This document shows positions 4,255 through 17,784 of a DNA stretch of 28,213 nucleotides, one piece after another. The notes beneath the pieces were generated by a model that was given only the letters and a program-made list of their open reading frames with translations, did no database searches and was not told the DNA's origin. The DNA comes from a virus: positions 1 to 28,213 of IMG/VR virus record IMGVR_UViG_3300048922_000163, one strand, 5' to 3'. The first letter of the stretch is position 1; each line of letters starts with the position of its first letter. The translations under genes and the position numbers were made by a program.

Positions 4255-4928
4255 CAGCCACCCCCTTGCAGACGAGCGAACAGGCTCGCGTTGTTCGCCT
4301 GCGTGATGTTGTTGGCCTGTTTGCTCAGGTCGGCCGTTCGGCCGAAGCCCGGCAGGCCGTTCATTGCGATTCCCGAGGCAGCCCCATTGGCGGCTTGGGC
4401 GGCGGCACTCAGCCACGGGTTCTGCTGGACCGACTGCAGGCGCAGCCGGGACAGGAAGTCGTCGGCCTGGGATTGGCGCCCAATCAGCCCCAGTCGGGTC
4501 TGAAGATCGCCCTCTTCCAATGCCTCTCGGGTTCGCCGCTGCTGCGGTGCGTCGATCCGCCCCATCAGGGTGGCGGCCGTTTGGCCGTAGTCGCTTACGC
4601 CCAGCGCAGCATCGTTGGCAGCAGTTCGGTATGCGTCGCTCACGGCTCCGGACTGACCCAGGCCATTTGTAGCGGCCGCCTGCGCCGCACGCGCCTGCTG
4701 CAGGTACTGCTGGGAAATGCTGCCACGCTCCGACGCCCCGTCGCTGACGGCGCGCTGAGCCAATAGGTCGGTGACCGCGCGGTCCGCTTCGTCCTGCCTG
4801 CGCGACTGCTGCCGGATCTGCGCCGCAGCCTCCCGGTCTTGGGATTTCGCGACGTTCCTCTGGTTGACGTAGTTGAGCCCTCCACCCAAGAGGGCAAGGC
4901 CTGCAGCGGCTGCCAGTTCAACGCCCAT
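4254..4928 (-). CDS. Internal virion protein (small)
   Basis: This 224-aa protein has a short hydrophobic N-terminus (about residues 4-20, Ala/Leu/Gly-rich), followed by a highly charged helical region with many Gln and Arg (about 25-75) and further amphipathic helices. A hydrophobic N-terminus followed by a coiled coil resembles the small core or ejection proteins of T7- and P22-type phages (gp14-like). The ATG at 4928 abuts the stop of the preceding gene, whose last coding base is also 4928. It is the second member of the three-gene ejection cluster. The assignment is by context and composition only. Confidence 0.5.
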   Translation of the reverse strand: MGVELAAAAGLALLGGGLNYVNQRNVAKSQDREAAAQIRQQSRRQDEADRAVTDLLAQRAVSDGASERGSISQQYLQQARAAQAAATNGLGQSGAVSDAYRTAANDAALGVSDYGQTAATLMGRIDAPQQRRTREALEEGDLQTRLGLIGRQSQADDFLSRLRLQSVQQNPWLSAAAQAANGAASGIAMNGLPGFGRTADLSKQANNITQANNASLFARLQGGG

Positions 4929-5542
4929 CAGCGGGTACCTCCTGCTCCAAAGCCGGGCTGATACAGCTGCCCGTAAACGTCACGGAAGCCGCGGCGATCC
5001 GCGGCAGATTCACGGCTGCGCCTGTAGACATCGCTCAGGCCGCCGAACACGTCACCCAGCGCATCAGTCTTCAGGCTCCCCTGTGCGGCCTGCAGATTGT
5101 TGCGGAGAGCGCTGGCGGCCTGTGTCGCGCCACCGGTCAGGCTCAACCCGCTGCCTGCTTGCGCGATCAGGTTCTGCCTGGCCGCCTCGTCCGCGTTGCG
5201 CAGGTCAGAAACTGCGCCCTGGGCCAGCCGCTCCGCAGATAGAACGCCGCGCTGGTAGTCCTCGCCGAGCGTCCGGTTTGCGTCCGCTGAGGCAGAACCA
5301 CCGGACAGGCCACTACGGGCCATGGCGAACTTCAGGCTGCGATCTGCGACGCCCTTTTGTCGCTCCAGTTCGTTGGTGTAGAACGAGCGAGTGGCGCCCA
5401 GGAAGTCATCGATCCCCGCCTGGCGACTGGGCGAACCGTAGATCGAGTTGATCTGGCCCACGGCGCGGTTGATGTTCGAAGTCCGCCATCCCTCCGCCTG
5501 TGCCGCCTCGTTGGCCGCCTTGCTCCCCTTCTGTGCGCCCAT
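4928..5542 (-). CDS. Virion-associated protein of the ejection cluster
   Basis: This is a 204-aa protein. The open frame runs upstream to 5752, but the likely start is the ATG at 5542 (MGAQKGSK), which overlaps the acetyltransferase-like gene's stop (TGATG). The sequence is rich in Ala, Ser, Gly and Arg and strongly helical, with no recognised motif. Residues about 25-70 (INSIYGSPSRQAGIDDFLGA and following) look like a segment often seen in podovirus proteins encoded next to the internal virion proteins. It is probably a virion or assembly factor. An unrelated role cannot be excluded. Confidence 0.5.
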   Translation of the reverse strand: MGAQKGSKAANEAAQAEGWRTSNINRAVGQINSIYGSPSRQAGIDDFLGATRSFYTNELERQKGVADRSLKFAMARSGLSGGSASADANRTLGEDYQRGVLSAERLAQGAVSDLRNADEAARQNLIAQAGSGLSLTGGATQAASALRNNLQAAQGSLKTDALGDVFGGLSDVYRRSRESAADRRGFRDVYGQLYQPGFGAGGTR

Positions 5543-6051
5543 CAGGCACCTCGCATCTTGGAAAAGTGGGCGATGTCCTCGCCATTGGCGCCGTACCCGC
5601 GCCACACGCCCTCTGGCTGCATGCCGAGGGATTGCTCGAACCATCGAATGGCTTCCGTGCGGCTGGTCAACGCGTTGGTCTGGACGCGCCGGGCACCGTT
5701 CTCGAACAGGCGATCCATCAGCCAGCGGCTCGCCTTGGTCATGGCCCGCCACTGCTCGGCCCAGCCTGCTTCATTGCCGACCATCCACGATTGCCAGACG
5801 CCGTTCCCGATGAACTCAAACCCGCCAGCAGCAGCGGGAGTGCCGTCGCGTCGCAGGGCTGTCACGGCATACGGGGCGGATCGAGACCATGCGCCAATCA
5901 GTGCATGTGCGGCGGTGTCCGGATCGAACTGATCGCCGCCGGTCACCGCAAGGAACTGTTCTTGCTCGCTGACGCGCATCTGGTCGGCCAGTAGCACCAG
6001 GTGCAACGGCCGACAGGCGACGATACTGCTGGGAAGATGGGCTGGAATCAT
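5542..6051 (-). CDS. GNAT-like acetyltransferase encoded among virion genes
   Basis: This 169-aa protein has the length and C-terminal signature of small GNAT proteins: ARRVQTNALTSRTEAIRWFE followed by a LGMQPEG-type turn, close to the pattern that ends RimJ/RimL-like acetyltransferases. The acetyl-CoA-binding Arg/Gln-x-x-Gly-x-Gly/Ala loop is not clear, so activity is uncertain. GNAT-like proteins are known from podovirus structural regions, where their substrate is generally unknown. No ribosome-binding site precedes the ATG at 6051; instead its ATG overlaps the TGA of a 14-codon open frame (6048-6092) that itself overlaps the upstream stop, so translation is probably coupled. Confidence 0.6.
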   Translation of the reverse strand: MIPAHLPSSIVACRPLHLVLLADQMRVSEQEQFLAVTGGDQFDPDTAAHALIGAWSRSAPYAVTALRRDGTPAAAGGFEFIGNGVWQSWMVGNEAGWAEQWRAMTKASRWLMDRLFENGARRVQTNALTSRTEAIRWFEQSLGMQPEGVWRGYGANGEDIAHFSKMRGA

Positions 6052-6092
6052 GCGGAAATGCTGACTTCCAGCCCACCTTGATCAATGGTCAT
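6048..6092 (-). CDS. Possible 14-codon coupling ORF between nozzle and GNAT-like genes
   Basis: The frame encodes MTIDQGGLEVSISA. Its ATG overlaps the TGA of the 826-aa gene (ATGA at 6089-6092) and its own TGA overlaps the ATG of the GNAT-like gene (ATGA at 6048-6051). It fills exactly the 37-bp gap between two genes, the second of which lacks a Shine-Dalgarno sequence. It may exist to carry ribosomes across the gap rather than to make a functional peptide. Chance cannot be excluded for so short a frame. Confidence 0.3.
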   Translation of the reverse strand: MTIDQGGLEVSISA

Positions 6093-8569
6093 GCCATGGG
6101 ACGGAAGTCCTGCACGTACAGGCCGAAGGCATTCCACTGCCACGCCTCGGTGCCGTCGTAGACCAGCCGCACAGCGAACGTCGGCGCCGCCATCGACATT
6201 GGCACCGGGCCACCGGTGAGCGTGTCCGGATCGACCTGGTATGCAGGCGTGAATGCCCCGCCATTGGTCTGGTCGAAGCCGACCTGGATGCCGACCTTGC
6301 CCCGCCCCACCACCTCGAACCCGTACAGCATCTTTGTGACGCCCGCCGGGCCGAAGTCCAGCCACGGCCACTGGATCACGCCTTGGAACGGGGTGAACAC
6401 ACCCGGGGAAAGCTCGTCCCCAATCACGCCGTCGACCATCCGATAGATGCGGTTGGCCGAACGCAGGTAGAGCGCGTCGCCCTGGATCGCCCAGGTGTGC
6501 ACCTCGAACGGGAAGACGTACCGCGACCACGCGCCCACCTGCCCGATCTGGGTCATGGTGTAGACGAACACCTCCGTTTGCCCACCACGGGCGAACATCA
6601 GCCAATACTGACCTGCCGCGGGGAAGTAGAGCCCGCGCGGCACCACCGCAGGATCGGCCAGCCACGCCTGCACCAGCGGGTCGATCGGCATGCCTACGTC
6701 GCCTGCCTGGAAGTTCGTGCTGCTGGCGGCGATGCCCACGCTGCGCACGCCCTGGCTGGCCAGGAACAGCAGATCGTTGCCAACCGCCGCAATGGCGCGG
6801 TGCTGGGTGCTTCCCACCGGCAGCGCGTCCAGCAGCGACATGCTGGACGGATCTTCATCGATCTGCCACAGCTGGAACGCCTCGGCGTTGAACACGGTCA
6901 GGTTGCCGCGGTAGAGGCCCATGGCCGCCACCGGATTCGCGCCGTAGTTCTGCAGGCCGGTGGGCAGGAACCCGGCATCGTTGGCGCTGCTCCAGTCCTT
7001 CGGCGCCACTGTGGCGCTGTATGGCACGGTGTCGCCATTTCCAGCGAACACTTTCGAGGCGCCGATCAGCACCACCTTGCTGTTGGGGCAGTTCGGGTCC
7101 TCTACCCGGCGGCTCACGGCCTGCCAGGTCACGCTGCCATCCACCACGGTGCCGCCAACGTTGGTTGGCCAGGCCGGCTCGCTGCCGCCGCTCACGTACA
7201 GCGGAGAAGCTGTCCAGGTGACGCGGGTGATCGCCACAGCTTCCCAGGTCACCCCGCCATCCACTACGCGCTTGCCGAGGATGTTCGGCCACGCCGGTTC
7301 GGTGGCACCGGTATGCGCCACCACGTCCTGCACGGCGCGGTATACCAGGCCTGCAGGGAGGCCATTCACGGCACCGCTGACAGAGAGGTTGTCGGCACCG
7401 GTCACGTGGTCATGGTCGCCAACCGACCACAGAGCGATGACGCCCCGGGCATACGACGCGCCGGCGGGCTTCGGCGAAACCGCAGTGGAGATCGCCGCAT
7501 CGCTGCTGACGATGTTCCCCTGCGTGTAGCTGATCATCACGTCGTCCTTGTCGTACCACCGGACCTCCACCCAGCCGCGCGTGGCGCCGGCCTTGGCCGG
7601 GCCCTGCTCGATCAGGCAGTTGGCCGTGAGCGACGCCCCATCAGCGACGACGAAGCGCGCCTGGTTCACCGCTGCGCCATCGCTGATGCGCCCGGGCAGC
7701 TCCAGCTTGCCCGAGACAATGTGCGCACCGCCTTCCAGATCCCAGCCGGTGTTGCCGTCGGTGAAGTTGCCGTTGATTGGAGCCGTCGCCGTCGGGCTCG
7801 GCAGGTTCACTGGCCTGATCAGATCGCCCTTGGCCGCCTGCTTGGCAGCAGTCCACTGCGGGACCGACCCTCCCGCCGTGCCGCTGCCCGCATTCCCCAG
7901 CGGGTTCTCCAGCGGAACGTCCTCGTTCACGGTGCCGCCAGCAGTTGCCGGCCACTGCGGTTCGGTGTCGCCGGAGCGCGCGTTGGCACCGCTCACCGAG
8001 CTGACCGTGTACTTGAAGCCGTTGTTGGCCGACGGCACCACCACATTGCCCACAGTGCGCGCCGCGTAGGCCTCCCATGTTGCGTGGCCACCACCGGTGT
8101 CCACCAGCGAATAGGCTAGGCCGTTGGGCGCTGTCGGGCTGACCAGCGCACCCGGCAGGTACGTGGTGTTGGGTGCCCAGGGTTTCCCCTCTTCCAGCCA
8201 GTAGTGATAGATCGAGCCGTCGGAGAACTCGGCCACCACGTACAGGAACCCCAGATACGGCAGCGAGTAGTGGATCTCCTTCAGCGTGGCCGCGCCGTTG
8301 CTCGGATGTTTCAGCACCACCACCGAGTAGCCGGGGCCAGCCGGCATCACCTGGTCGGCATAGACGACGAACGCTCCCTTGAAGGAGGTCAGCCCGATCG
8401 TTCCGGGCGGCAAGTCCAGCTGGATCCGCGCGGCCTGGCGCATGCGGATGGTGCGGGCAGCGGTCACGTAGCCGTTGAGCAGATCGAACAGCGCATCCTC
8501 CGACGCGCCGCCCTTGTCACGCAGGCGGGTGATGCCGGCCTTTACGGCGGACAGGTAGGTGGCACGCAT
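6089..8569 (-). CDS. Tail nozzle / packaged-DNA stabilisation protein with inserted binding modules
   Basis: This is an 826-aa beta-rich protein. Residues about 1-125 and about 495-826 look like the beta-propeller or tubular portal-closing proteins of podoviruses (P22 gp10 / T7 gp12 type), with strands such as LTVFNAEAFQLWQ and NDLLFLASQGVRSV. The centre (about 130-490) looks like an insertion. It holds ChtBD3/CBM-like segments beginning PWAPNTTYLPGALV, three copies of an EPxWPxxxGxxVxDG-type motif (about 203, 424 and 464), and a probable jelly-roll starting NGNFTDGNTGWDLEGG (about 266-400). Such modules often bind carbohydrate, so the nozzle may also contact the cell surface. The ATG overlaps the adaptor gene's TAA (TAATG). 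Confidence 0.65.
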   Translation of the reverse strand: MRATYLSAVKAGITRLRDKGGASEDALFDLLNGYVTAARTIRMRQAARIQLDLPPGTIGLTSFKGAFVVYADQVMPAGPGYSVVVLKHPSNGAATLKEIHYSLPYLGFLYVVAEFSDGSIYHYWLEEGKPWAPNTTYLPGALVSPTAPNGLAYSLVDTGGGHATWEAYAARTVGNVVVPSANNGFKYTVSSVSGANARSGDTEPQWPATAGGTVNEDVPLENPLGNAGSGTAGGSVPQWTAAKQAAKGDLIRPVNLPSPTATAPINGNFTDGNTGWDLEGGAHIVSGKLELPGRISDGAAVNQARFVVADGASLTANCLIEQGPAKAGATRGWVEVRWYDKDDVMISYTQGNIVSSDAAISTAVSPKPAGASYARGVIALWSVGDHDHVTGADNLSVSGAVNGLPAGLVYRAVQDVVAHTGATEPAWPNILGKRVVDGGVTWEAVAITRVTWTASPLYVSGGSEPAWPTNVGGTVVDGSVTWQAVSRRVEDPNCPNSKVVLIGASKVFAGNGDTVPYSATVAPKDWSSANDAGFLPTGLQNYGANPVAAMGLYRGNLTVFNAEAFQLWQIDEDPSSMSLLDALPVGSTQHRAIAAVGNDLLFLASQGVRSVGIAASSTNFQAGDVGMPIDPLVQAWLADPAVVPRGLYFPAAGQYWLMFARGGQTEVFVYTMTQIGQVGAWSRYVFPFEVHTWAIQGDALYLRSANRIYRMVDGVIGDELSPGVFTPFQGVIQWPWLDFGPAGVTKMLYGFEVVGRGKVGIQVGFDQTNGGAFTPAYQVDPDTLTGGPVPMSMAAPTFAVRLVYDGTEAWQWNAFGLYVQDFRPMA

Positions 8570-9981
8570 TAGTTGCCCTCCGGCCAGCCGCCAACGGGGA
8601 TCGGACGCCGCGCAGGCGGGATCTGCCGGGTGCCGGGGATGTAGCGGCGGGTGCCGTGGGAGCCGGCGATCAGCTGCCGCACGTAGGCCTGAGCCTGCTG
8701 CATGTAGTTGCCGGCGTCGGATTGCTTGTAATGAGCCTTGGCGTTCGCCAGCGCGTGCAGGAACACCGCGCGGCTGTTGACCGTTAGCAGGTCATCGTCA
8801 CCGGTGAGCCACTTCAGTCCCAGATGACCCCGCATCTTGATCGTGTAGGCGCGGTCCGGCGCCGGGAAGATCTCGATGCAGCCCGTGATCCGGTAATAGG
8901 CCGGTTTGCTCAGCGAGGTGCTGGTGTACAGCACCGGGTCGATGCCCTCGATCAGCGGCGTCCACTGCACGTCGTCCTGAATGCCCGCCCACGTGATGCG
9001 CCGGAAGTCCAGGTACTGGTCCAGATCCAGCGGCACGTCGTACAGATTGGCGCCGGGCACGCACTGGATGGTCCACCAGCGCTCGGTGCGCAGTTCCTTG
9101 TACTGCTGGTACAGCTGGTCCTGGGCGTCACGAATGAAGCTGTCGACCATCGCATCGAGGTCGAACGGCCGGCGCTGGGCCATTTCCTGCAGGCGGCTGT
9201 AGTAGGCCTCGGCATCCTTCTGGCCGTACTTCGCCTTCGCGTCGGCGATCGCCTGCATTTCCACGGCCACGCCGTCGATCACGGTCTTGTCGTCGCCTTC
9301 GATCAGCGGCGCCTTCCCGTCGCCGTAGCGGTCCATGGCGTACCGCTGCAGCAGCGAGTCCTGCGCGGTGTTGATGATCTGGTCCACGTCCGCAGACTTC
9401 GCCACGGTGGTGATGTAGCCGCCCAGCTGGTCGTAGTAGGCCTTCGAATCCTGTTGGCCGTGGTGGGCCTTGCCGTTGGCCAGAGCCAGTAGGAAGACTG
9501 CCCAGGGGTCGAGCGTTGTCACATCGGCGTCGTCATGGAACGGGGCCAGCGGCGTACTCACGCTCAGCCGGTACTGGTGCTGCAGCGCCACCTGCGCTTC
9601 GGACAGGAAGTTGGTCAGCAGCTCCTTGACGCCCGGCGCCCAAGCATCCGCAGTGGCCTGCGCAGAGAAGCCGAGCCGGCGCAGAAGGTCCAGCCGCAGC
9701 GATGCCATCGTGCGCGGTGGCGGCGTCCCCACGTAGGTGAAACCCAGCGCGGTCGATACCGTCTGCCGCAGCTGGTCGAAAGTGCGCTGCACCTTGACGG
9801 GCTCGACCACGAAGCCGAGGCGGCGGATCACCTCCTGCCGTGCCTTCTTCAGGGACCATTCCACGCCCAGCGATGACAGGTTCACCTGGCCGGTGTCGTA
9901 GTTGATCGGCGCGTCATACCCCAGCGGGCTGTCGTAGACGTTGCCGCCGTTGACCATGATCGGTGCGTTGTTGCCGCCCAT
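8569..9981 (-). CDS. Head-to-tail adaptor / tail tubular A-like protein with tandem modules
   Basis: This is a 470-aa protein encoded just before the nozzle gene, the place of the adaptor (P22 gp4 / T7 gp11 type). It contains repeated units. Three LR-x-x-L/V-x-x-x-LGF segments lie at about 47-56, 71-81 and 95-105. Three helical units with an AQxxLxQxY start and an ALANxKAHxxQxDxxxY-like end lie at about 120-195, 201-272 and 280-440. The third carries a beta insertion (RWWTIQCVPGANLYDVPL onward) typical of single-copy relatives. The start at 9981 has GGAG eight bases upstream. A terminator-like hairpin lies just upstream (9994-10030). Confidence 0.65.
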   Translation of the reverse strand: MGGNNAPIMVNGGNVYDSPLGYDAPINYDTGQVNLSSLGVEWSLKKARQEVIRRLGFVVEPVKVQRTFDQLRQTVSTALGFTYVGTPPPRTMASLRLDLLRRLGFSAQATADAWAPGVKELLTNFLSEAQVALQHQYRLSVSTPLAPFHDDADVTTLDPWAVFLLALANGKAHHGQQDSKAYYDQLGGYITTVAKSADVDQIINTAQDSLLQRYAMDRYGDGKAPLIEGDDKTVIDGVAVEMQAIADAKAKYGQKDAEAYYSRLQEMAQRRPFDLDAMVDSFIRDAQDQLYQQYKELRTERWWTIQCVPGANLYDVPLDLDQYLDFRRITWAGIQDDVQWTPLIEGIDPVLYTSTSLSKPAYYRITGCIEIFPAPDRAYTIKMRGHLGLKWLTGDDDLLTVNSRAVFLHALANAKAHYKQSDAGNYMQQAQAYVRQLIAGSHGTRRYIPGTRQIPPARRPIPVGGWPEGN

Positions 9982-9993
9982 ATCGTTCTCCAG

Positions 9994-10030
9994 AAAGAAA
10001 AACGGCCGACCGAGTCGCCCCGGCCGGCCG
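9994..10030 (-). terminator. Rho-independent terminator upstream of adaptor gene
   Basis: On the minus strand a 12-bp GC-rich stem (10003-10014 with 10019-10030, two G-U wobbles, 4-nt loop) is followed by TTTTTCTTT. The wobbles pair only in the minus-strand RNA, which sets the direction. It lies inside the late operon, between the head-protein block and the adaptor and tail genes. Confidence 0.75.
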
Positions 10031-10050
10031 CCAGCCCGCCGCCAGCGGAC

Positions 10051-10593
10051 TTAAACGGTTTCGCTGCCCTGGTCGCCCAGCGCCGCAGCAATGGCATCCA
10101 GCACGCCCTTGCGCGGCTTCTCGCGGGCGTTCTCGATCGCCGCCAGCTCGTGCAGGTCCTCGTCGGTCAGGTTGTCCAGCGCCGCCTCGATCTCGGCGAC
10201 GGTCTTGCCGGCGAGAGCTTCCAGATCGTCGGACTGGTCGTCCTCTTCTTCGTCCTCAGCTTCGACGCTTTCAGCGGAGGCGCTGGTCTTGGCTGCCGCG
10301 ATGCTCGCCGCCACCGCCTTGAAGAAGGCGCGTTCGTTGCGGTAAGCGGCTTTCAGGGCCTCAGCCCCTTCTGCCGTGCTGCCATACTTGTTCTTCAAAC
10401 CGGCAAACACCTCAGCCTCATCGAAGTTCTGCACATCGAACTTCTCGCTCTTGATCTCGGTGATCACCGCTCCTTCAGCGAACAGTTCTTCGAGAATCGG
10501 CAGCTCGTAGTCGAAAACCTGCACGGGCAGCTTGGTGGTTGCATCGCGGTCGATGACCAGCGTCAGCAACAGCAGGGATACGGTCTTGGCCAT
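10051..10593 (-). CDS. Acidic head-region protein with C-terminal helix-extended-helix motif
   Basis: This 180-aa protein has three visible parts: an N-terminal beta-like segment (MAKTVSLLLLTLVIDRD onward), a helical middle, and a strongly acidic linker (about 104-124, rich in E and D). It ends in a short segment of the form DEDLHELAAIENAREKPRKG followed by VLDAI. That ending recurs at the C-terminus of many phage head and tail accessory proteins, where it forms a small LEM/HeH-like helical fold. Its ATG overlaps the stop of the preceding probable decoration gene (TAATG at 10591-10595). A role in head completion or joining is plausible from position but is not proven. Confidence 0.55.
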   Translation of the reverse strand: MAKTVSLLLLTLVIDRDATTKLPVQVFDYELPILEELFAEGAVITEIKSEKFDVQNFDEAEVFAGLKNKYGSTAEGAEALKAAYRNERAFFKAVAASIAAAKTSASAESVEAEDEEEDDQSDDLEALAGKTVAEIEAALDNLTDEDLHELAAIENAREKPRKGVLDAIAAALGDQGSETV

Positions 10594-10904
10594 TACTGCA
10601 CGCCCTCCAGGGTGATCGGCGCCGTCGCGGCGGTACCGGTGCGGATGAAGTCCGGCAGGTCGGCGATCTCGACCACCGGCGCCAGGTTGGCGGACGCGCT
10701 CAGCAGGGTGAACCAGCCGGAGCTGCCAGCGGCCGGGGTGCTGCCGTCGGCCGGCGCTTCGTGTCCCTGCAGCAGAACGCCGGTGGTCACGGCGGTGTTG
10801 GCACCCAGATTTGCCAGGCCTTCGCGGCCCCAGCCGCCCAGCAGCGGGGTGGTGTTGAGCTTGACGATGGTGCCCCCGGTCGGGAGCGTCTTCACGTTCG
10901 GCAT
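10593..10904 (-). CDS. Probable capsid decoration / cement protein
   Basis: This is a 103-aa, Gly/Ala/Thr-rich, beta-prone protein starting MPNVKTLPTGGTIVKLN. The start at 10904 has AGGAG six bases upstream; an in-frame ATG at 10928 has no such site. It immediately follows the major capsid gene, and small beta-rich proteins at this position are usually capsid-stabilising (cement) proteins, as in other podoviruses with HK97-fold heads. No specific family motif is recognisable, so the call is by size, composition and neighbourhood. Confidence 0.5.
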   Translation of the reverse strand: MPNVKTLPTGGTIVKLNTTPLLGGWGREGLANLGANTAVTTGVLLQGHEAPADGSTPAAGSSGWFTLLSASANLAPVVEIADLPDFIRTGTAATAPITLEGVQ

Positions 10905-10916
10905 TTCAGTCTCCTG

Positions 10917-10940
10917 CCGGCGAGGCAATTCCCCGCCGGC
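10917..10940 (-). other. Intergenic hairpin between capsid and decoration genes
   Basis: A GC-rich inverted repeat (GCCGGCG...CGCCGGC on the minus strand) lies between the capsid stop and the next ribosome-binding site. No T-tract follows, so it is more likely an mRNA-stabilising or processing hairpin than a terminator. Confidence 0.4.
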
Positions 10941-10950
10941 TGTAGGTTGG

Positions 10951-12015
10951 TTACGAGATCGAGAAGACCGCGTTGCTGTTGCGCTTCTTCATGGTCACGC
11001 CGTAGTGGGCCGTGACGCCGAAGTAGTGCGTATGGCGGTCATACACGCGCGGCGGAGTGCGCGAGATCATCCAGCGGCCCTTCACGGGGCGCAGCTTGAT
11101 GGTCTTGCTGTTGAGGAAGTAGCCGCGCTTCTTCCACGGCACCGCGATGGTGCCCAGGCGGTCGTCCAGTGCGTCGAAGGTGGGATCCCACACGCACAAC
11201 ACGTTCTTGAAGCGCAGTTCCTTGGTGGTCGGATCCAGCGTCACACCGCCACCAGGGCCGCCCGTGCCAATGGTGATCTGACGGCCCATGACCGCCAGCG
11301 CGTCGGCCTGCAGCGCGTCGTACATGTCCGAACCCATCGGGATGAAGTCCGGAGCGCCCATCTTTCCGTAGGCGATGGTCTTGCGCCACAGCGTTTCCAT
11401 GCGCTTGATCAGGGTGCCGGGCGTGGTGGTGCTGATGCCGATATCGGCCCAGTTACGCCAGTAGGGCGTGGTGGCCGCATCAATGCCGCCAATAGTGCCA
11501 ACGGCCGGCGTGGTGCTGACCAGTGCATCCAGGCCAGGAACAGCCTTGGGATTGGTCGAGCCATCCAGATGGACCTCGATATCCCAGTTTTCCTGGAAGC
11601 CGTCCTTCAGGGTGGCGCGGTTCTCCGTCAGGATGTTGACGATCTGGATCTTCTCGGCCTCGGTCATCACCGCGTTGCGGTCATCAGTCAACAGGATGCC
11701 GTTGTTGGCCAGCTCGGTTTCGTTGAGGGTGAAGCCGTCGAAGGCTTCATACGACTGGTACGGCGCCAGACGAACGGTCTTCTTGCGGTTGTAGGTGACC
11801 TGATCGTCACCGGTGTAGTTCTGGTAGTTGGAGTCGTTGGTGTAGCGCACCTTCTCGTTGTAGACGCCGTTGCCGAAGACCGAATCCACCTTGTTGCGGA
11901 TCAGCCAGTCGGCGAATGGGCGATCAGTGGTGAACTGATCGATCGGATCTTCTTTGGAGAACGACTGCAGCTGGGTATTGGCGCCAGAAATCAGCTGGGC
12001 AGCGGTAAGCGGCAT
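10951..12015 (-). CDS. Major capsid protein
   Basis: This 354-aa protein follows scaffold and portal in the standard order TerS-TerL-portal-scaffold-capsid. The size fits an HK97-fold major capsid protein. The charged N-terminal arm (about 1-50), a central region with NETELANNGILLTDDRNAVM, and a C-terminal beta-rich segment (WKKRGYFLNSKTIKLRPVKG) are consistent with podovirus coat proteins. I see no propeptide cleavage signature, in keeping with a separate scaffold gene. GAGG lies eight bases before the ATG. Position and general character make the assignment secure; the exact family was not tested. Confidence 0.8.
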   Translation of the reverse strand: MPLTAAQLISGANTQLQSFSKEDPIDQFTTDRPFADWLIRNKVDSVFGNGVYNEKVRYTNDSNYQNYTGDDQVTYNRKKTVRLAPYQSYEAFDGFTLNETELANNGILLTDDRNAVMTEAEKIQIVNILTENRATLKDGFQENWDIEVHLDGSTNPKAVPGLDALVSTTPAVGTIGGIDAATTPYWRNWADIGISTTTPGTLIKRMETLWRKTIAYGKMGAPDFIPMGSDMYDALQADALAVMGRQITIGTGGPGGGVTLDPTTKELRFKNVLCVWDPTFDALDDRLGTIAVPWKKRGYFLNSKTIKLRPVKGRWMISRTPPRVYDRHTHYFGVTAHYGVTMKKRNSNAVFSIS

Positions 12016-12252
12016 AGGAATGGCCTCGGAAGGAAAGATGGCCAGCCCGCAGGGGCTGAGGGTCTTTCCGCGTTCCGAGGGCGCGAGGCTCGTTACAGCG
12101 CTACCGGCGGCGAACCCGGCTTACGTCACACGCGGGGCGGCTGGTGTGCCGCTCGGTGGTCAAGATGCCAGCGCTGGTGGGCGCGTCAATGGGCGCCGGC
12201 GGTACACTCGGCGAGCCGGGGCAAGCCGGCTATCTCAAACAGGGGCAATGGA

Positions 12253-12741
12253 ATGAGCTTTCCCGTAACCGCGTTCTTCGTGGCTGAAGCATCGGAAGTG
12301 CCAGCAGGACGCTTCTACATCAACGACGGCCAGTGGTTCATGTCTGTCGACGCCAACCAAGGCCAGGGCGGAAGTCTTTCGGCTATCTGCCTGACAGGCG
12401 ATCAAACCGGCGTGTTCTCCCCCCGAGAGAACGGAACCGTCACCTACGTGGGAGGCGAGTTCCAAGTGGAGATCCGGGTGGCCGGAATCGATGCGACCGT
12501 GGACCGGCAAGAAGGGAACTGGAACGCTTCGATCATCATCGGCGAGGAGTTCGCCATCTACGCCCAGCGCGGCAACGGCGACGCAGTTATCTCGCTAGAC
12601 GGGAAACTGAGTAGGGGCAACGGGCTGTCTGGATGCCGCCGGCGATTCACTGCGTGGTCGGCATGGCTGATCCGGCCGGACGGTCGGCAGATCGGGGAAG
12701 AGCCACTTTTCAGTGTGGTTTCGATTCCGAAGGTCGATTAA
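12253..12741 (+). CDS. Plus-strand cargo gene (moron) between scaffold and capsid
   Basis: This 162-aa, probably beta-rich soluble protein starts MSFPVTAFFVAEASEVPAG. The open frame extends far upstream, but only as the antisense of capsid and neighbouring genes. The ATG at 12253 has AGGGG seven bases upstream. It is the only plus-strand gene inside the late operon, and it ends 2 bp before a hairpin shared with the convergent scaffold gene, the classic layout of a moron that can be expressed in a lysogen. A weak -10-like TACACT lies at 12203-12208 without a convincing -35. G+C is about 57-62% in sampled lines, lower than in the flanking structural genes. No function is recognisable. Confidence 0.6.
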   Translation: MSFPVTAFFVAEASEVPAGRFYINDGQWFMSVDANQGQGGSLSAICLTGDQTGVFSPRENGTVTYVGGEFQVEIRVAGIDATVDRQEGNWNASIIIGEEFAIYAQRGNGDAVISLDGKLSRGNGLSGCRRRFTAWSAWLIRPDGRQIGEEPLFSVVSIPKVD

Positions 12742-12770
12742 AGAGAAAGGGGCCGAAAGGCCCCTTCTCT
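12742..12770. terminator. Bidirectional hairpin terminator between moron and scaffold genes
   Basis: A 12-bp stem with one bulged A (12742-12754 with 12759-12770) encloses a GAAA tetraloop. It lies between the convergent stops at 12741 and 12772. The stem is A/T-rich at its base, but both T-tracts are short, so termination may be partial. In the minus direction it precedes the capsid gene. Confidence 0.55.
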
Positions 12771-12771
12771 G

Positions 12772-13857
12772 TTACTGCCCGCGTGCCCTTGCCGCCTGGA
12801 CGCCAATGTCGAATGCGTTCTCGGGCGTGATCTGCGGAGCCACCGGTGCGGCGGAGTTCGCCCGGATCGGGTTGGGTGCGCTGCGGGCGACAGGTGCCGC
12901 TGCAGCTGGCACGGCAACCGCGGTGGCCGGCAGCGCCAGGTAGGCGCGGTGGATCTCGGTCTGCCACTGCGCCGGCGGCAGCGTGCGCTGGATGATGTCG
13001 ATCGTCGGCGCCAGTAGCGCCAGCTTCTGATCGAACTGCGCATCCCCTGCGCGGAGCTGCGTGCCAAGCTGCTGCACCGAGGCGAGCCCCTGCTGGTACT
13101 GCAGATCCTGCTGCTGGCGATCCTGCTGCGCCTGGGTGTGTGTCTGCTGCAGCTGGCCAGTCTGGCGATGCTGGGCCAGTTCCAGCGCCACGTCGCGGGT
13201 GATGTCGCCGGAGGTGACGCGGCCGGCCAGGTCCGGATGTGCGCTCAGCGGATCGAACCCAGGCGCCTCGCGGCCCAGCTGCTGGCCCAGCCACTGCAGC
13301 TCGCCCTGCATGCGATCGTAGGCGTCAGCCATACGCTTCGGGTCGCCCGAGTTGATGTCGGACAGGTAGCGCAGTGCACCGCCGAACTGCTCCGGCGTGG
13401 CACCGGTGCTCTGGACCGTTTCCTCCCACTGGCCGACCCGCTCGCGTGCATCACGGGCCTGGGTGTGCAGCTCCTGGAAGCGCTCGGCCGCGCGTTCCTT
13501 CAGGCCCAGCTGCTTCACCTCGTCATCTACCGTCGGCTGCTGCGGCTGCGCGGGCGGTGCTGGCGGCTGCTCGCCGGCGGGCGGTGCGTTCGGGTCGGTG
13601 GCGGCCGGCGTGGCCGGTGTCCCGTCCTGCGGCGGCTGGCCGTCTGCTGCCGTCGGGGAAGCGCCAGGCAGTGCGCCCTCCAGCGCCTCCTGCTCGCGTG
13701 CAGCTTCGACGCCAGCGGAGAACGCGTCGAGTTCGGCGGCAGCGGGCTGCGGTGCGTCTCCGCCGTCGGCAACCGGCGGTGCGCCAGTGTCGGCCGGCTG
13801 GACGTCGGTCGGGGTGGTATCCGGCGTGGCCGGAGTGTTCGGGTCTTCGATGTGCAT
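12772..13857 (-). CDS. Scaffolding protein
   Basis: This is a 361-aa protein with an N-terminal 100-residue low-complexity region rich in Pro, Ala, Asp and Gln, a charged helical middle (about 110-260) with many Gln/Glu/Arg heptads, and an Ala/Pro-rich C-terminus. This composition, together with a place between portal and major capsid, is typical of phage scaffolding proteins, which guide procapsid assembly and then leave. AGAGG stands eight bases before the ATG. No protease-like triad is visible, so it does not look like a fused maturation protease. Confidence 0.75.
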   Translation of the reverse strand: MHIEDPNTPATPDTTPTDVQPADTGAPPVADGGDAPQPAAAELDAFSAGVEAAREQEALEGALPGASPTAADGQPPQDGTPATPAATDPNAPPAGEQPPAPPAQPQQPTVDDEVKQLGLKERAAERFQELHTQARDARERVGQWEETVQSTGATPEQFGGALRYLSDINSGDPKRMADAYDRMQGELQWLGQQLGREAPGFDPLSAHPDLAGRVTSGDITRDVALELAQHRQTGQLQQTHTQAQQDRQQQDLQYQQGLASVQQLGTQLRAGDAQFDQKLALLAPTIDIIQRTLPPAQWQTEIHRAYLALPATAVAVPAAAAPVARSAPNPIRANSAAPVAPQITPENAFDIGVQAARARGQ

Positions 13858-13881
13858 GGTGGTACCTCTGTTGGCGGCGGG

Positions 13882-15927
13882 TTAGAGAGGCGGGGCGACA
13901 ACGCCGCCCACGGGTGCTGCGGTGGGTACCGGCGCTTCGGCCGGCGGAAGGGCTTGCATGGGATCGGCAGGCGGCATGCCGGGCATGGCCGGCGCGTCGA
14001 TCACGGCGCCAGGCGCAACCTGCGGCACCTGCGGAATGAAGGTGTAGGCATCGATGGATGTGTCGCCGGTGCGCTCGATGGTTTCGACCATCAGCTGTTC
14101 CAGGCTGTTGGCGATGTCAAGCGGCGTTGCGCCGCGCATCTCGCCGATGGTGACGACTGCCTGCTGCAGCTGCGGCAGGATCGCGCCCCACTGCTGCCGG
14201 CGCAGGTTGGACGCCGGGCGGCCCGAGCTGCCCGCGCGAATGTCGACGTTCAGCAGCGCAGTGACCAGCTCCGGCAGGGTCGCGTTGAACCACAGCGCCT
14301 CTGGCCCGGCGATGTCGCTCACCTCTTCCGGCGACAGGCCGGCGGGTGACATGGCTTCCTCAGCGGTGTACTGCGCGACCTCGCCCAGGACGTCGTCCAG
14401 GCTGTCGCGGCTGTAGCCCAGGCGCGACTCGGTTCCCTGCTGCTGGATGTCGGCCTCGGTGGCCGTCTTCGCGGTCTGGATGCTGGAGGACAGCGCCTCC
14501 TGGATGCCCCAGATCAGTTCCAGTTCGGCGCGGATGGGCGCGGTGTCGTACAGCGCGGCGTCGATCTGGTTGTACTGGATGGGGAACAGCACGCTGGTGG
14601 TGGGCAAGCCCTTCAGGTCCAGGCCGACCATCTCCCCGATGCCGGCGCCCTCCAGCTTCGCTGCGTCTTCCGGCTCTACAGCACCACGGTCGAAGCCCAG
14701 CTTCGGGATGGCCCGGCGGCGATGCTCGCGGTAGTTGGTGCGGGTGCGGTTGTACTCGTCCAGCAGGGCACGCGAGCGGTCCACCAGCGACTGCGGATGC
14801 CGCTCCCCATCCACCCACAGCGGCGCCCACTGGAAGAACGGGTAGAAGCGCGTGCTGCGCTGGTCGGGGGTGTACGGCTGGCGCAGGTTGCGGCGCAGAC
14901 CGGGCGTGATGGTGCGCACCAGGTTGGTGGTCAGGTCCCACACCTCCCATATGCACAGGAAGCGCGGGCCGGCATCACTGCCCTGCCCTGCCGCCGTGGC
15001 GCTGCGGAACACCTCGGCGTCGCTGTCGCTCACCACACCATCAGCCGGGGCGAACCCACCTTCGCGCGCGCGGCTCTCTGGCTGCACGTGGTAGTAGGCC
15101 TCGGCCTTCCCCAGCTCGTCGCGCAGCTCCGGGAACGTGGCCTGCGCCTTGTCGTACGGCATGAACGTGCGGTGGGCGATCCACGGCGAGATGGCGTAGT
15201 CCTTCAGCGTGGCCACGTCCATGGAGACCTGGATGTCTTCGCCGCGCACGAAGTCGAAGACCAGGCCGTTGTAGATGATGTGCTCGACCTGGGATTCCAG
15301 CGTCTGCATCTGCTGTTCGTACTGAGCCTTCAGCAGGTCCGGGTTGGCGGCGTTTCCCTCGGCCAGCTCGCTTTCCATCAGGGCCAGGGCTTCGAGCTTG
15401 GCGCGCAGGTCGGCGATGCGCTGATCGGTGGTCGGGTCGCGCTCGGTCTCGCGGTGCCATGCCGCCTTGATCCAGCCGATGCCGATGCTGAGGCCCGAAC
15501 GCACCATGGCGTCGGCAGCGTGCTTCAGGCGACCACGCTTCCACAGCGAGGCAATGACGATCTCCAGAGTGCGGCCGACCTGCTTGGCCAGCTTCACCCG
15601 GCTGGAGCCGACCGACTCGGCGGGCTGCACGGCAGGCTCAGGGTCGCGTGCGTACAGGAACGACGTCAACAGGTTCACGTAGGTGCCGGCGATCGGCACG
15701 CTCACGTCATAGACCGGATCGACCTGGTTGCGGCAGTAGCGACGGTCCAGCGCATAGCCCTTGCGGGCGTTCTTGTCGAACTCGCGCGACTCCTTGATGC
15801 GCTTGTGCCAGTTGGCGACGTCTGCTTCTTCCTGTGCCAGCGCCTGGGCCTGCGCCTCGCGCTCTGCGTCGGCTGCCTGCTCGGCCGCCAGTGCGTCGGT
15901 GAAGCTGTCGGCGGTGGGCATGGTCAC
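13882..15927 (-). CDS. Portal protein
   Basis: This 681-aa protein is encoded directly after TerL. Its length matches P22-type and other podovirus portals. The sequence has a charged N-terminal helix (about 15-45) and RRYCRNQVDPVYDVSVPIAG; a middle with KAAWHRETERDP followed by a long helical wing; and a low-complexity Pro/Ala/Met C-terminus (about 630-681) that may form the barrel end. The GTG start at 15927 overlaps the TerL stop (GTGA) and has AGGAG nine bases upstream. An ATG two codons later is the alternative but is farther from that site. The portal forms the dodecameric DNA channel and docking site of the terminase. Confidence 0.8.
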   Translation of the reverse strand: MTMPTADSFTDALAAEQAADAEREAQAQALAQEEADVANWHKRIKESREFDKNARKGYALDRRYCRNQVDPVYDVSVPIAGTYVNLLTSFLYARDPEPAVQPAESVGSSRVKLAKQVGRTLEIVIASLWKRGRLKHAADAMVRSGLSIGIGWIKAAWHRETERDPTTDQRIADLRAKLEALALMESELAEGNAANPDLLKAQYEQQMQTLESQVEHIIYNGLVFDFVRGEDIQVSMDVATLKDYAISPWIAHRTFMPYDKAQATFPELRDELGKAEAYYHVQPESRAREGGFAPADGVVSDSDAEVFRSATAAGQGSDAGPRFLCIWEVWDLTTNLVRTITPGLRRNLRQPYTPDQRSTRFYPFFQWAPLWVDGERHPQSLVDRSRALLDEYNRTRTNYREHRRRAIPKLGFDRGAVEPEDAAKLEGAGIGEMVGLDLKGLPTTSVLFPIQYNQIDAALYDTAPIRAELELIWGIQEALSSSIQTAKTATEADIQQQGTESRLGYSRDSLDDVLGEVAQYTAEEAMSPAGLSPEEVSDIAGPEALWFNATLPELVTALLNVDIRAGSSGRPASNLRRQQWGAILPQLQQAVVTIGEMRGATPLDIANSLEQLMVETIERTGDTSIDAYTFIPQVPQVAPGAVIDAPAMPGMPPADPMQALPPAEAPVPTAAPVGGVVAPPL

Positions 15928-17279
15928 AGGGCGGATCTCCTACGTTCGGCGAGTGAGGGCTGGTCGGAGTGCTCCAACCACTGGCGGCTATGGGGCACCA
16001 GCACCCGAGGCCGTTCAATGGACGGTCGGTCGCGCGCGCTTACTGCGGCGGGGAATTTGCTGTGGATGAAGTAGCCCAGGGCGTCCGGCGGATGGTCGAA
16101 ACCGGTCGTCTTGTCGGGCAGACCGTTGGCGTCGTACGGCTGCTTCTCCAGCGCCTCGGTCAGCTTCGGGCAGTTGCGCACGTTCACCAGGAAGCGGCGG
16201 CGGCGCTTGGCGTTGAGGATCATGGCGTTGACGCTGACCACGCGGGAGCGGATGCGCGGGTTGGCCGCCGGCACAACGATCGTCATCGACCGTTCGGCCC
16301 GGATCAGGCCCAGGTCGGACGTACTGGCGTTGTTGGTGTGCTGGCTGTCGCCGCTGGCGTCCGGGTAGATCGTCATCCGGTGGCCGCCGAACTGGTCCCG
16401 CAGCGCCTGGATCATCGCAGGGGTGTCGCGGATGCCGGTCAGCTCGGCCAGCGCCATCGGCTCGCCGTCGCGGATCACGCAGATGATGGCCGTCATGTTC
16501 AGCACGTTGAAGTCCATGCCGATGTGCAGCGCCTCGCCGTCCTGGATCTCGGCAGTGGTGTTGTTGGCCGTGCGGGAGAAGGCCGGATACACCGACCCCG
16601 TGGTCAGGTTGACGAACATCCCGTCGATGTAGGCCTGCACCAGCTGGGGCGGGTAGCTCTCGAACAGCGACTGGATGTAGTCGTCCGGCAGGTTGGCCTC
16701 GTTGTCGTAGGTGCTGGCGTGCACCAGGCCGTACAGCACCTGCAGCTTGGGGTTCTCGCTGGGTAGCTGGTGGAACTGCTCGTAGACGAAGTTGAACCCC
16801 TCGGGGGTAGTCGTCACATCGATGCCGTTCTGCAGGCCGTCGGCCTTCACGCGCAGGCGGGCAATGATCTTGCGCCAGGCGTCCTGGGCCTTCCGCTTCT
16901 TCAGCGTGTCGATCTCGTCGACCAGGGCCTTGCCGACCTTGAAGCCAACGATGCTGGCCGGGTTGTCCATCGACCGGCAGATGATCGTGCCGCGGTACTG
17001 GCGGCCTGAGTACAGATGGGCCTCCTTGTTCGACTCGACTATGCGCGCGCGCAGTCCCCAGTCGAAGGCCACTTCCTCGATGGTTGGATAGAAGATGTCG
17101 CGGATCTGCGGATAGCTGGGAGCGAAGTACCCGGCCGGCACGCGCGGATGCGTCCACACGTGGCTGCATAGCGAGCCGCAGCCGACCCAGGTCTTTCCAG
17201 AGCCGAACCCACCAACGAAGGCGCGGAACTTGTGCGGCAGCTGCAGGAACGCGGCCTGCGGTTCGTTAAGGGTTGGCAT
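15924..17279 (-). CDS. terL: Terminase large subunit
   Basis: This is a 451-aa ATPase-nuclease that pumps and cuts DNA during packaging. Walker A GGFGSGKT is at 23-30, Walker B ALVDEID at 118-124, and the coupling motif TTTPEGF at 156-162. Nuclease acidic residues are visible at D256 (GMDFN), D307 (YPDASGD) and D395/D399 (DHPPDA). The start overlaps the TerS end by 14 bp and the stop overlaps the portal GTG. All expected motifs are intact, so the gene looks functional. Confidence 0.93.
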   Translation of the reverse strand: MPTLNEPQAAFLQLPHKFRAFVGGFGSGKTWVGCGSLCSHVWTHPRVPAGYFAPSYPQIRDIFYPTIEEVAFDWGLRARIVESNKEAHLYSGRQYRGTIICRSMDNPASIVGFKVGKALVDEIDTLKKRKAQDAWRKIIARLRVKADGLQNGIDVTTTPEGFNFVYEQFHQLPSENPKLQVLYGLVHASTYDNEANLPDDYIQSLFESYPPQLVQAYIDGMFVNLTTGSVYPAFSRTANNTTAEIQDGEALHIGMDFNVLNMTAIICVIRDGEPMALAELTGIRDTPAMIQALRDQFGGHRMTIYPDASGDSQHTNNASTSDLGLIRAERSMTIVVPAANPRIRSRVVSVNAMILNAKRRRRFLVNVRNCPKLTEALEKQPYDANGLPDKTTGFDHPPDALGYFIHSKFPAAVSARDRPSIERPRVLVPHSRQWLEHSDQPSLAERRRSAL

Positions 17280-17784
17280 TCCGGCGGCGCCCGCTGACCA
17301 CGTTCACCGTGACCGCGACCGGTGCTGGTGTGTCGCCGTCGTCCTCGCCCTCCGGCTTGTCGCGCCAGCTGCCCGGCTTGCGGTTCTTCAACCAGAAGAT
17401 CGCCGCAGTCGTGTCCGGCGGGAACTGCTTGTCGGTCGAGGTGACCACGATCTCCCCTTCCACCACCCGGACGTCGTCCTCTCGGCAGCGGTAGCCGGTT
17501 GCCCGTTCGAACAGGGCGCGCTCCACCCGCAGGTCGGCCTCGGCCTTACTCAGCTTTAGGGCTTCCGAAAACTCGGGGTGCTTGATCTTCCACAGGTTGA
17601 CCGTGGACAGGGCCACGCCGAAGAACTCAGCCACTTCCGGGTCGGTGCAGCCCCTGCGGCCCAGCAGTGCGGCCTGGCGCGTGAACTCCGCGCGGTACTT
17701 GGTGGGCCGGCCACCCTTCGAGGGTGCTTTGGCTTCCTTCTTGGCCGGTTTGGCCTTCGGGGCGTCTGGCTTCTTGCGGGGCAT
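17266..17784 (-). CDS. terS: Terminase small subunit
   Basis: This 172-aa protein starts with a Lys/Pro/Ala-rich tail of about 25 residues, then GRPTKYRAEF and a helix-turn-helix (GCTDPEVAEFFGVALSTVNL, about 45-65) that would bind the packaging site. The C-terminal part has the conserved PPDTTAAIFWLKNRKPGSWRD segment seen in many terminase small subunits. Its ATG at 17784 overlaps the stop of a small upstream open frame (TGATG). It recognises phage DNA and hands it to TerL. Confidence 0.88.
   Translation of the reverse strand: MPRKKPDAPKAKPAKKEAKAPSKGGRPTKYRAEFTRQAALLGRRGCTDPEVAEFFGVALSTVNLWKIKHPEFSEALKLSKAEADLRVERALFERATGYRCREDDVRVVEGEIVVTSTDKQFPPDTTAAIFWLKNRKPGSWRDKPEGEDDGDTPAPVAVTVNVVSGRRRNANP

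Follow-up and report, generated by a model that had tools for sequence, protein, structure and literature searches.

In tailed phages, the amount and timing of capsid protein are usually explained by promoters and gene order, and autoregulatory leader pseudoknots are known from T4 gene 32 and from ribosomal protein leaders. P2 and P4 phages reportedly carry hotspots of antiviral systems. The locus described here, between the scaffold candidate and the capsid gene of a temperate podophage, resembles the P2/P4 hotspots as a fixed phage cargo site with exchangeable conflict genes, although the phage group is a different one and the site lies inside the head operon, beside a capsid-leader RNA. Like the leaders of T4 gene 32 and the ribosomal proteins, this RNA is a 5' leader pseudoknot that could control access to the ribosome-binding site, but its topology and its gene differ from theirs and it has no Rfam match. 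The Swarozyc/DUF4062 proteins are described, in the accessible text of a 2026 preprint (PMC13174449), as TIR-like NADases of abortive defence that are triggered by the phage portal and work as a single protein. Chromosomal relatives of our cargo protein are encoded directly behind DUF4062 genes, whereas the phage cargo gene stands alone, without DUF4062, and the accessible text describes no such partner. The protein Nip of phi3T inhibits the portal-triggered TIR NADase SpbK, according to the available part of another report (PMC11984713). The job proposed below for the cargo protein, neutralising a portal-triggered NAD-degrading defence, would be that which the available part ascribes to Nip; the phage group is another, and the likeness proposed is one of role.

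The window, i.e. the whole stretch of DNA that was analysed, is a virus record of 28,213 bases from a group of temperate podophages that occur as prophages in Stenotrophomonas and its relatives. The late genes lie on the minus strand in the order terminase, portal, scaffold candidate, capsid and tail genes. The major capsid gene (10951–12015, PHROG major head, 7e-27) is downstream of the leader RNA, and the scaffold candidate (12772–13857), which matches no family and was named by position and composition, delimits the cargo site upstream; portal and terminase lie further out. A prophage of S. maltophilia D5.1 (L083, in genome G001) is nearly identical to the window phage, with a 99% identical capsid, and a related prophage is present in the Stenotrophomonas genome G713, where three copies of the cargo gene and leader RNA were seen on three contigs (C1, C3 and C4). 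A tRNA search found none, and a megablast search with positions 4928–17279 returned nothing useful.

The original prediction placed a single plus-strand gene between scaffold and capsid, interrupting the minus-strand late genes, and a real open reading frame of 162 amino acids is indeed found there, from the ATG at 12253 to the stop at 12741. Its product had been said to belong to no known family, and searches of Pfam, PHROGs and PADLOC returned no match; Pfam gave no family at E values up to 1, the Tad2-like Pfam model PF11195 did not match, a search of 50,697 phage records yielded nothing useful, and a search of genome contigs with the single protein found no relatives. Considering that many long shadow reading frames arise in GC-rich DNA, the frame might have been spurious. 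This explanation is refuted by Ka/Ks values of 0.17 against the 94% homolog in L051 and 0.11 between the alleles of L003 and L004, both from near pairs, as well as by family-profile matches outside the capsid site and a confident predicted fold, so that we regard its probability as negligible. The excess of synonymous over amino-acid change indicates that the cargo gene is coding and under purifying selection. Upstream of the gene, a -10-like element TACACT (12203–12208, plus strand) was recognised by eye with no clear -35, promoter prediction returned no consensus promoter, and a weak TAnAnT element is present in all nine aligned cargo-bearing phages. The 5' leader of the gene also contains a small hairpin (12214–12231, plus strand; AGCCGG/CCGGCT), likewise identified by eye and preserved in all nine phages of the alignment. 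The gene ends, as anticipated, at a shared hairpin (12746–12767), which lies between the convergent genes and is terminator-like for the minus strand. The hairpin is still present in the empty sites that were read, those of L006 and L086, and is therefore ancestral and best taken as the terminator of the scaffold candidate, common to both genes by position; the idea that it belongs to the cargo was rejected for the same reason. The interval between scaffold and capsid also holds more than the cargo gene, as positions 12016–12190 contain the capsid promoter and a structured RNA leader, and this leader RNA is the larger and stronger find of the two.

To compare the site among relatives, we used the best 80 of 95 capsid loci in IMG/VR together with 27 more from genomes. 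The reading as cargo has held in three respects: the gene is precisely absent from sister phages, its alleles are swapped, and the site also accommodates other cargo. The gene was present in nine of the 12 loci with capsids at least 82% identical (L003, L004, L005, L007, L008, L009, L051, L083 and L084), the other three closest (L006, L085 and L086) had a clean empty site of about 210 bases, and the gene occurred in nine of the 100 examined capsid loci, those with at least 700 bases upstream; thus it is not conserved in all relatives. The DNA of the window and L083 is 97% identical over 4954–12293 and 96% identical over 13880–17664, while the gene body does not align and the cargo proteins are 45% identical. 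Accordingly, Ks against L083 was 0.018 for the capsid gene and 1.24 for the cargo gene, and the relation was reversed against L051, with 0.49 for the capsid gene and 0.16 for the cargo gene. These values show that the cargo gene has been replaced as an allele, for which recombination in the conserved flanks of the slot, i.e. the leader RNA on one side and the terminator and scaffold end on the other, would be the simplest cause.

In sister phages, the site between scaffold and capsid is filled by other genes. L013 encodes a Tad2-like protein there (Thoeris anti-defence 2; PF11195, 3.5e-24), with homologs in L015 and L020, although the cargo protein of the window has no match to the Tad2-like model. 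Phage_gp49_66 proteins occupy the site in L013, L014, L027 and L028, and a crAss001_48-related protein occupies it in L025; all of these genes lie on the strand of the capsid gene, unlike the cargo gene of the window. On another branch, L077, for instance, carries a Tad2-like gene between portal and scaffold, at -1695 to -1374 from the capsid gene. This position, one gene further and before the scaffold, gives the head module a second cargo slot.

With the family profile, relatives of the cargo protein were found in 10 of the 91 Stenotrophomonas genomes and in 16 of the 297 Lysobacteraceae genomes, and matches outside the capsid site reached E values down to 2e-43. We viewed 14 Lysobacteraceae family loci with their flanks. 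In seven of them a DUF4062 gene of about 375 amino acids lay directly upstream of the family gene, L277 was an eighth case, and the other seven viewed loci had no DUF4062 neighbour. Pfam confirmed DUF4062 in the five upstream genes tested whole (1e-20 to 2e-23), and in G121 the DUF4062 reading frame was interrupted. In the reverse test, a DUF4062 protein matched in 12 of the 297 genomes, with eight full-length matches, and a family member was next door at seven of these eight. The profile, which had been built with one DUF4062-linked member (L277), matched seven further DUF4062 loci with E values of 1e-17 to 1e-34. In the tree, the capsid-site proteins formed one clade (89/83) and the DUF4062 partners another (98/98), with about 20% identity between them, so that the target of the phage copy may be a different one. 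No DUF4062 gene lies beside the cargo gene in the window, and no DUF4062 match was found in G001, the genome of the L083 lysogen. Other neighbours of family members were a type IIG restriction enzyme (L304) and MkoC (L277). Taken together, the DUF4062 operons, PDC-M32, MkoC and the Tad2-like genes at the same site support a link of the family to phage-host conflict, as judged from gene neighbourhoods. Two further arrangements were observed. In L272 (3572–7004) and L273 (4914–7378), genes for an 80-amino-acid protein, a cargo-family protein, PDC-M32A and PDC-M32B form a possible conserved module, and in L307 (4045–7495) a DUF4062 gene, a cargo-family gene and the SIR2 candidate PDC-S65 stand in a row on one strand.

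The product had been called beta-rich, which agrees with an AlphaFold2 model that consists almost entirely of strands. While the model computed with nine sequences was poor (pLDDT 75.9), that with 29 sequences was good (pLDDT 88.8, pTM 0.86), which also supports the remote homologs. Residues 8–66 resemble SH3-like barrels, e.g. domain I of EF-P; the best VIA-align hit was 3oyy_B (Z 4.0, rmsd 3.0, 52 residues), tied among many beta barrels. Foldseek against viral and PDB structures found no match at E 0.001 or better, and the family profile found no match among PDB sequences.

Considering the DUF4062 operons, the reported portal-triggered NADase and the precedent of Nip, we infer a counter-defence role for the cargo gene, directed against DUF4062-like NADases, its product being a putative phage inhibitor or regulator of these enzymes by analogy. 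The gene is hypervariable cargo in a group of Stenotrophomonas-type temperate podophages, flanked by the terminator of the scaffold on one side and the promoter of the capsid gene on the other. The phage copy may bind or block a portal-triggered NADase of the DUF4062 type, much as Nip blocks SpbK, and the protein may diversify to match host variants. A gene on the strand opposite to the late genes and with its own start region could also be expressed from the prophage and protect the lysogen by excluding other phages, i.e. act in defence, and the family members beside the candidate defence genes PDC-M32A/B and MkoC would suit such a moron. However, no effector domain was recognised in the protein, and its chromosomal relatives pair with an effector that is absent from the phage within the window. 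The Tad2-like anti-defence genes at the same site in sister phages suggest counter-defence over lysogen protection. We therefore consider counter-defence more likely and protection of the lysogen rather improbable. The position between scaffold and capsid would fit a late structural or assembly factor, such as a head accessory protein, that came to lie on the other strand by chance, but the gene is absent in close sisters, is on the other strand, and has relatives that neighbour DUF4062 on chromosomes or lie at other positions in other prophages, which makes this role very unlikely. On balance, we favour as the best joint explanation, with modest confidence, that the cargo occupies a counter-defence slot and is aimed at DUF4062-type NADases, and that the leader RNA beside it switches capsid translation. 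In that case, the cargo family would be a concrete lead on how phages control the newly reported DUF4062 NADases, and the scaffold-capsid slot a fixed site in which to look for further counter-defence genes.

On the capsid side of the slot, the 215 bases before the capsid gene form a strongly conserved block across loci. A sigma-70-like capsid promoter, TTGACG-N16-CATCTT, lies at 12162–12189 on the minus strand with its -35 at 12189–12184, and by position the leader transcript should start just after it. The motif TTGACn-N15..17-(C/T)AnnnT precedes 67 of the 87 distinct RNA copies and none of 87 shuffles; most copies that lack it are among the more distant. On the same strand, the leader comprises a 5'-end hairpin P0 (GCGGC/GCCGC, 12137–12152), a core (12065–12138) with the helices P1 (CCGCG/CGCGG), P2 (GCCGG/CCGGU), P3 and P4, the last crossing P3 as a pseudoknot, and a stem-loop P5 (12034–12067) between the core and the ribosome-binding site. 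In a MAFFT alignment of 40 leaders, 98.9% of the cells pair, compared with 88.3% in shuffles (0 of 500 as high), two-sided changes occur in 14 of the 18 pairs, and no slid version exceeds 50%. When 56 distinct copies were fitted to a model containing P1–P3 and lacking P4, 99.3% of the cells were paired and 15 of the 18 pairs had two-sided changes; for P4 itself, 99.5% were paired, with two-sided changes in three of its four pairs. P4 is thus strong by column counts but was not significant in a run-length permutation test (150/2000 and 1431/5000), probably because GAGG/CCTC and CGAG/CTCG cross-match when shifted. Rfam 15 gave no match in the window at the gathering score, none at E values up to 1 for 11900–12850, and none over the leaders in L018, L062 and L120. 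An HDV-like or twister-like ribozyme was rejected, as the helix order of these ribozymes presumably differs from that of the leader and no Rfam match was found. In the open-access literature, we found no capsid-leader RNA of this kind. Judged by its covariation, the capsid mRNA begins with a structured, pseudoknotted RNA located upstream of one gene family.

The Shine-Dalgarno region of the capsid gene (TTCCGAGG, 12024–12031, minus strand) offers an alternative to P4. Positions 12073–12080 (CCUCGGAA), i.e. the 3' strand of P4 and its flank, are complementary to 12024–12031 (UUCCGAGG), forming a helix that we denote as P6. The minimum-energy fold of the window leader contains P6 stacked on P5. 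Forced P6 scored -60.9 kcal/mol and the P1–P3/P5 form -50.4 kcal/mol; the latter value excludes P4, for which the energy model has no score. Since the 3' strand of P4 is common to P6, two exclusive forms are likely, one with P4 in which the ribosome site is free and one with P6 in which it is buried. Capsid translation would be on in the P4 form and off in the P6 form, and the leader RNA is probably a translation switch controlling the amount of capsid protein. The leader could instead be a static structure for 5' stability or ribosome loading, with P6 as a by-product of GAGG in both strands. Shine-Dalgarno motifs are GAGG-like throughout, so that part of P6 comes free, and the mRNA might owe stability to its 5'-terminal P0 hairpin. 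However, the P6 pairing exceeds GAGG and covaries beyond this core, with CCTCGAA/TTCGAGG, CCTCGGAA/TTCCGAGG, CCTCAGA/TCTGAGG and CCCAC/GTGGG as examples, and at least five pairs are formed in 41 of the 51 distinct leaders, P6 being weaker in the other 10. The mean Watson-Crick run was 6.12 against 5.16 with shuffled partners, and none of 5000 permutations was as high, a count that cannot be read as a probability, given that the sequences share ancestry. Only the windows around the Shine-Dalgarno sequence carry the signal. A static leader therefore seems doubtful to us, if a serious alternative to the translation switch.

With a model made from the IMG/VR loci and the window, the RNA was detected just before the capsid gene in 22 of the 27 genome loci at E 5e-5 or better, several of the 27 being identical or almost identical to phages used to build the model (e.g. 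L091 and L025) and about 10 being clearly new sequences (L092–L094, L096, L100–L103, L108 and L109). The missed loci, L097 and L104–L107, are Burkholderiales-type relatives, and L104 and L105 had weak signals in the right place. In the last 170 bases before the capsid gene of the beta-proteobacterial relatives L104–L107, the P2–P3 region seems kept, and P1 is apparently replaced, by eye, by a long pairing with the segment that precedes the Shine-Dalgarno site, e.g. GCATGTGAG/CTCACATGC in L106. A DNA pattern found at least 117 instances in further loci of viral contigs; among the 117 listed, 105 had a capsid homolog right behind and three were cut by the contig end, and nine were dismissed as chance matches in coding sequence. 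The RNA was present in 11 of the 91 Stenotrophomonas genomes (13 copies) and in three of 259 genomes of the order, in both sets always before a capsid gene. Weak matches in six genomes were rejected, L124 being a CRISPR array and the others lacking a capsid gene and looking like coding DNA. A weak match to the RNA was also noted in G588. Two named phages, of Microcystis and Rhizobium, have capsids about 27% identical to that of the window. In the Microcystis phage, a gap of 18 bases separates scaffold and capsid and no RNA was found; nor was there an RNA match in the stretch at the scaffold end of the Rhizobium phage.

One of the 297 genomes, G192, carries the RNA in a second setting. Here, at L130:5446–5887, the RNA occurs twice in tandem (73.2 and 45.7 bits) with a spacing of 15 bases; a gene for an AlpA-like regulator (Pfam 3.6e-17) follows the pair and a tyrosine integrase gene precedes it. 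By eye, both the P5 stem and a Shine-Dalgarno complement are kept. The RNA was found in none of 10 other genomes of the same genus. The G192 locus is an integrative element and a possible phage satellite, and the presence of the RNA in this setting indicates that it is portable, which favours a regulator responding to something in trans. A bolder joint reading can be offered tentatively, as one we hold to be possible rather than probable. The leader would stand for a new class of RNA switches that respond in trans, and a phage product such as scaffold, capsid or another late factor would flip it to time or balance capsid synthesis; the G192 element would have captured two copies before AlpA to sense an infecting helper phage; and the slot would serve counter-defence against NAD-degrading, portal-sensing immunity. 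If true, a widespread conserved RNA switch on capsid mRNA would add a new layer to the control of head assembly, and the G192 copy would tie this switch to phage-satellite conflict. Between the integrase gene and the RNA of the G192 element, a sub-threshold symR match (L120:896–968, 53.9 of 61 bits) was also observed.
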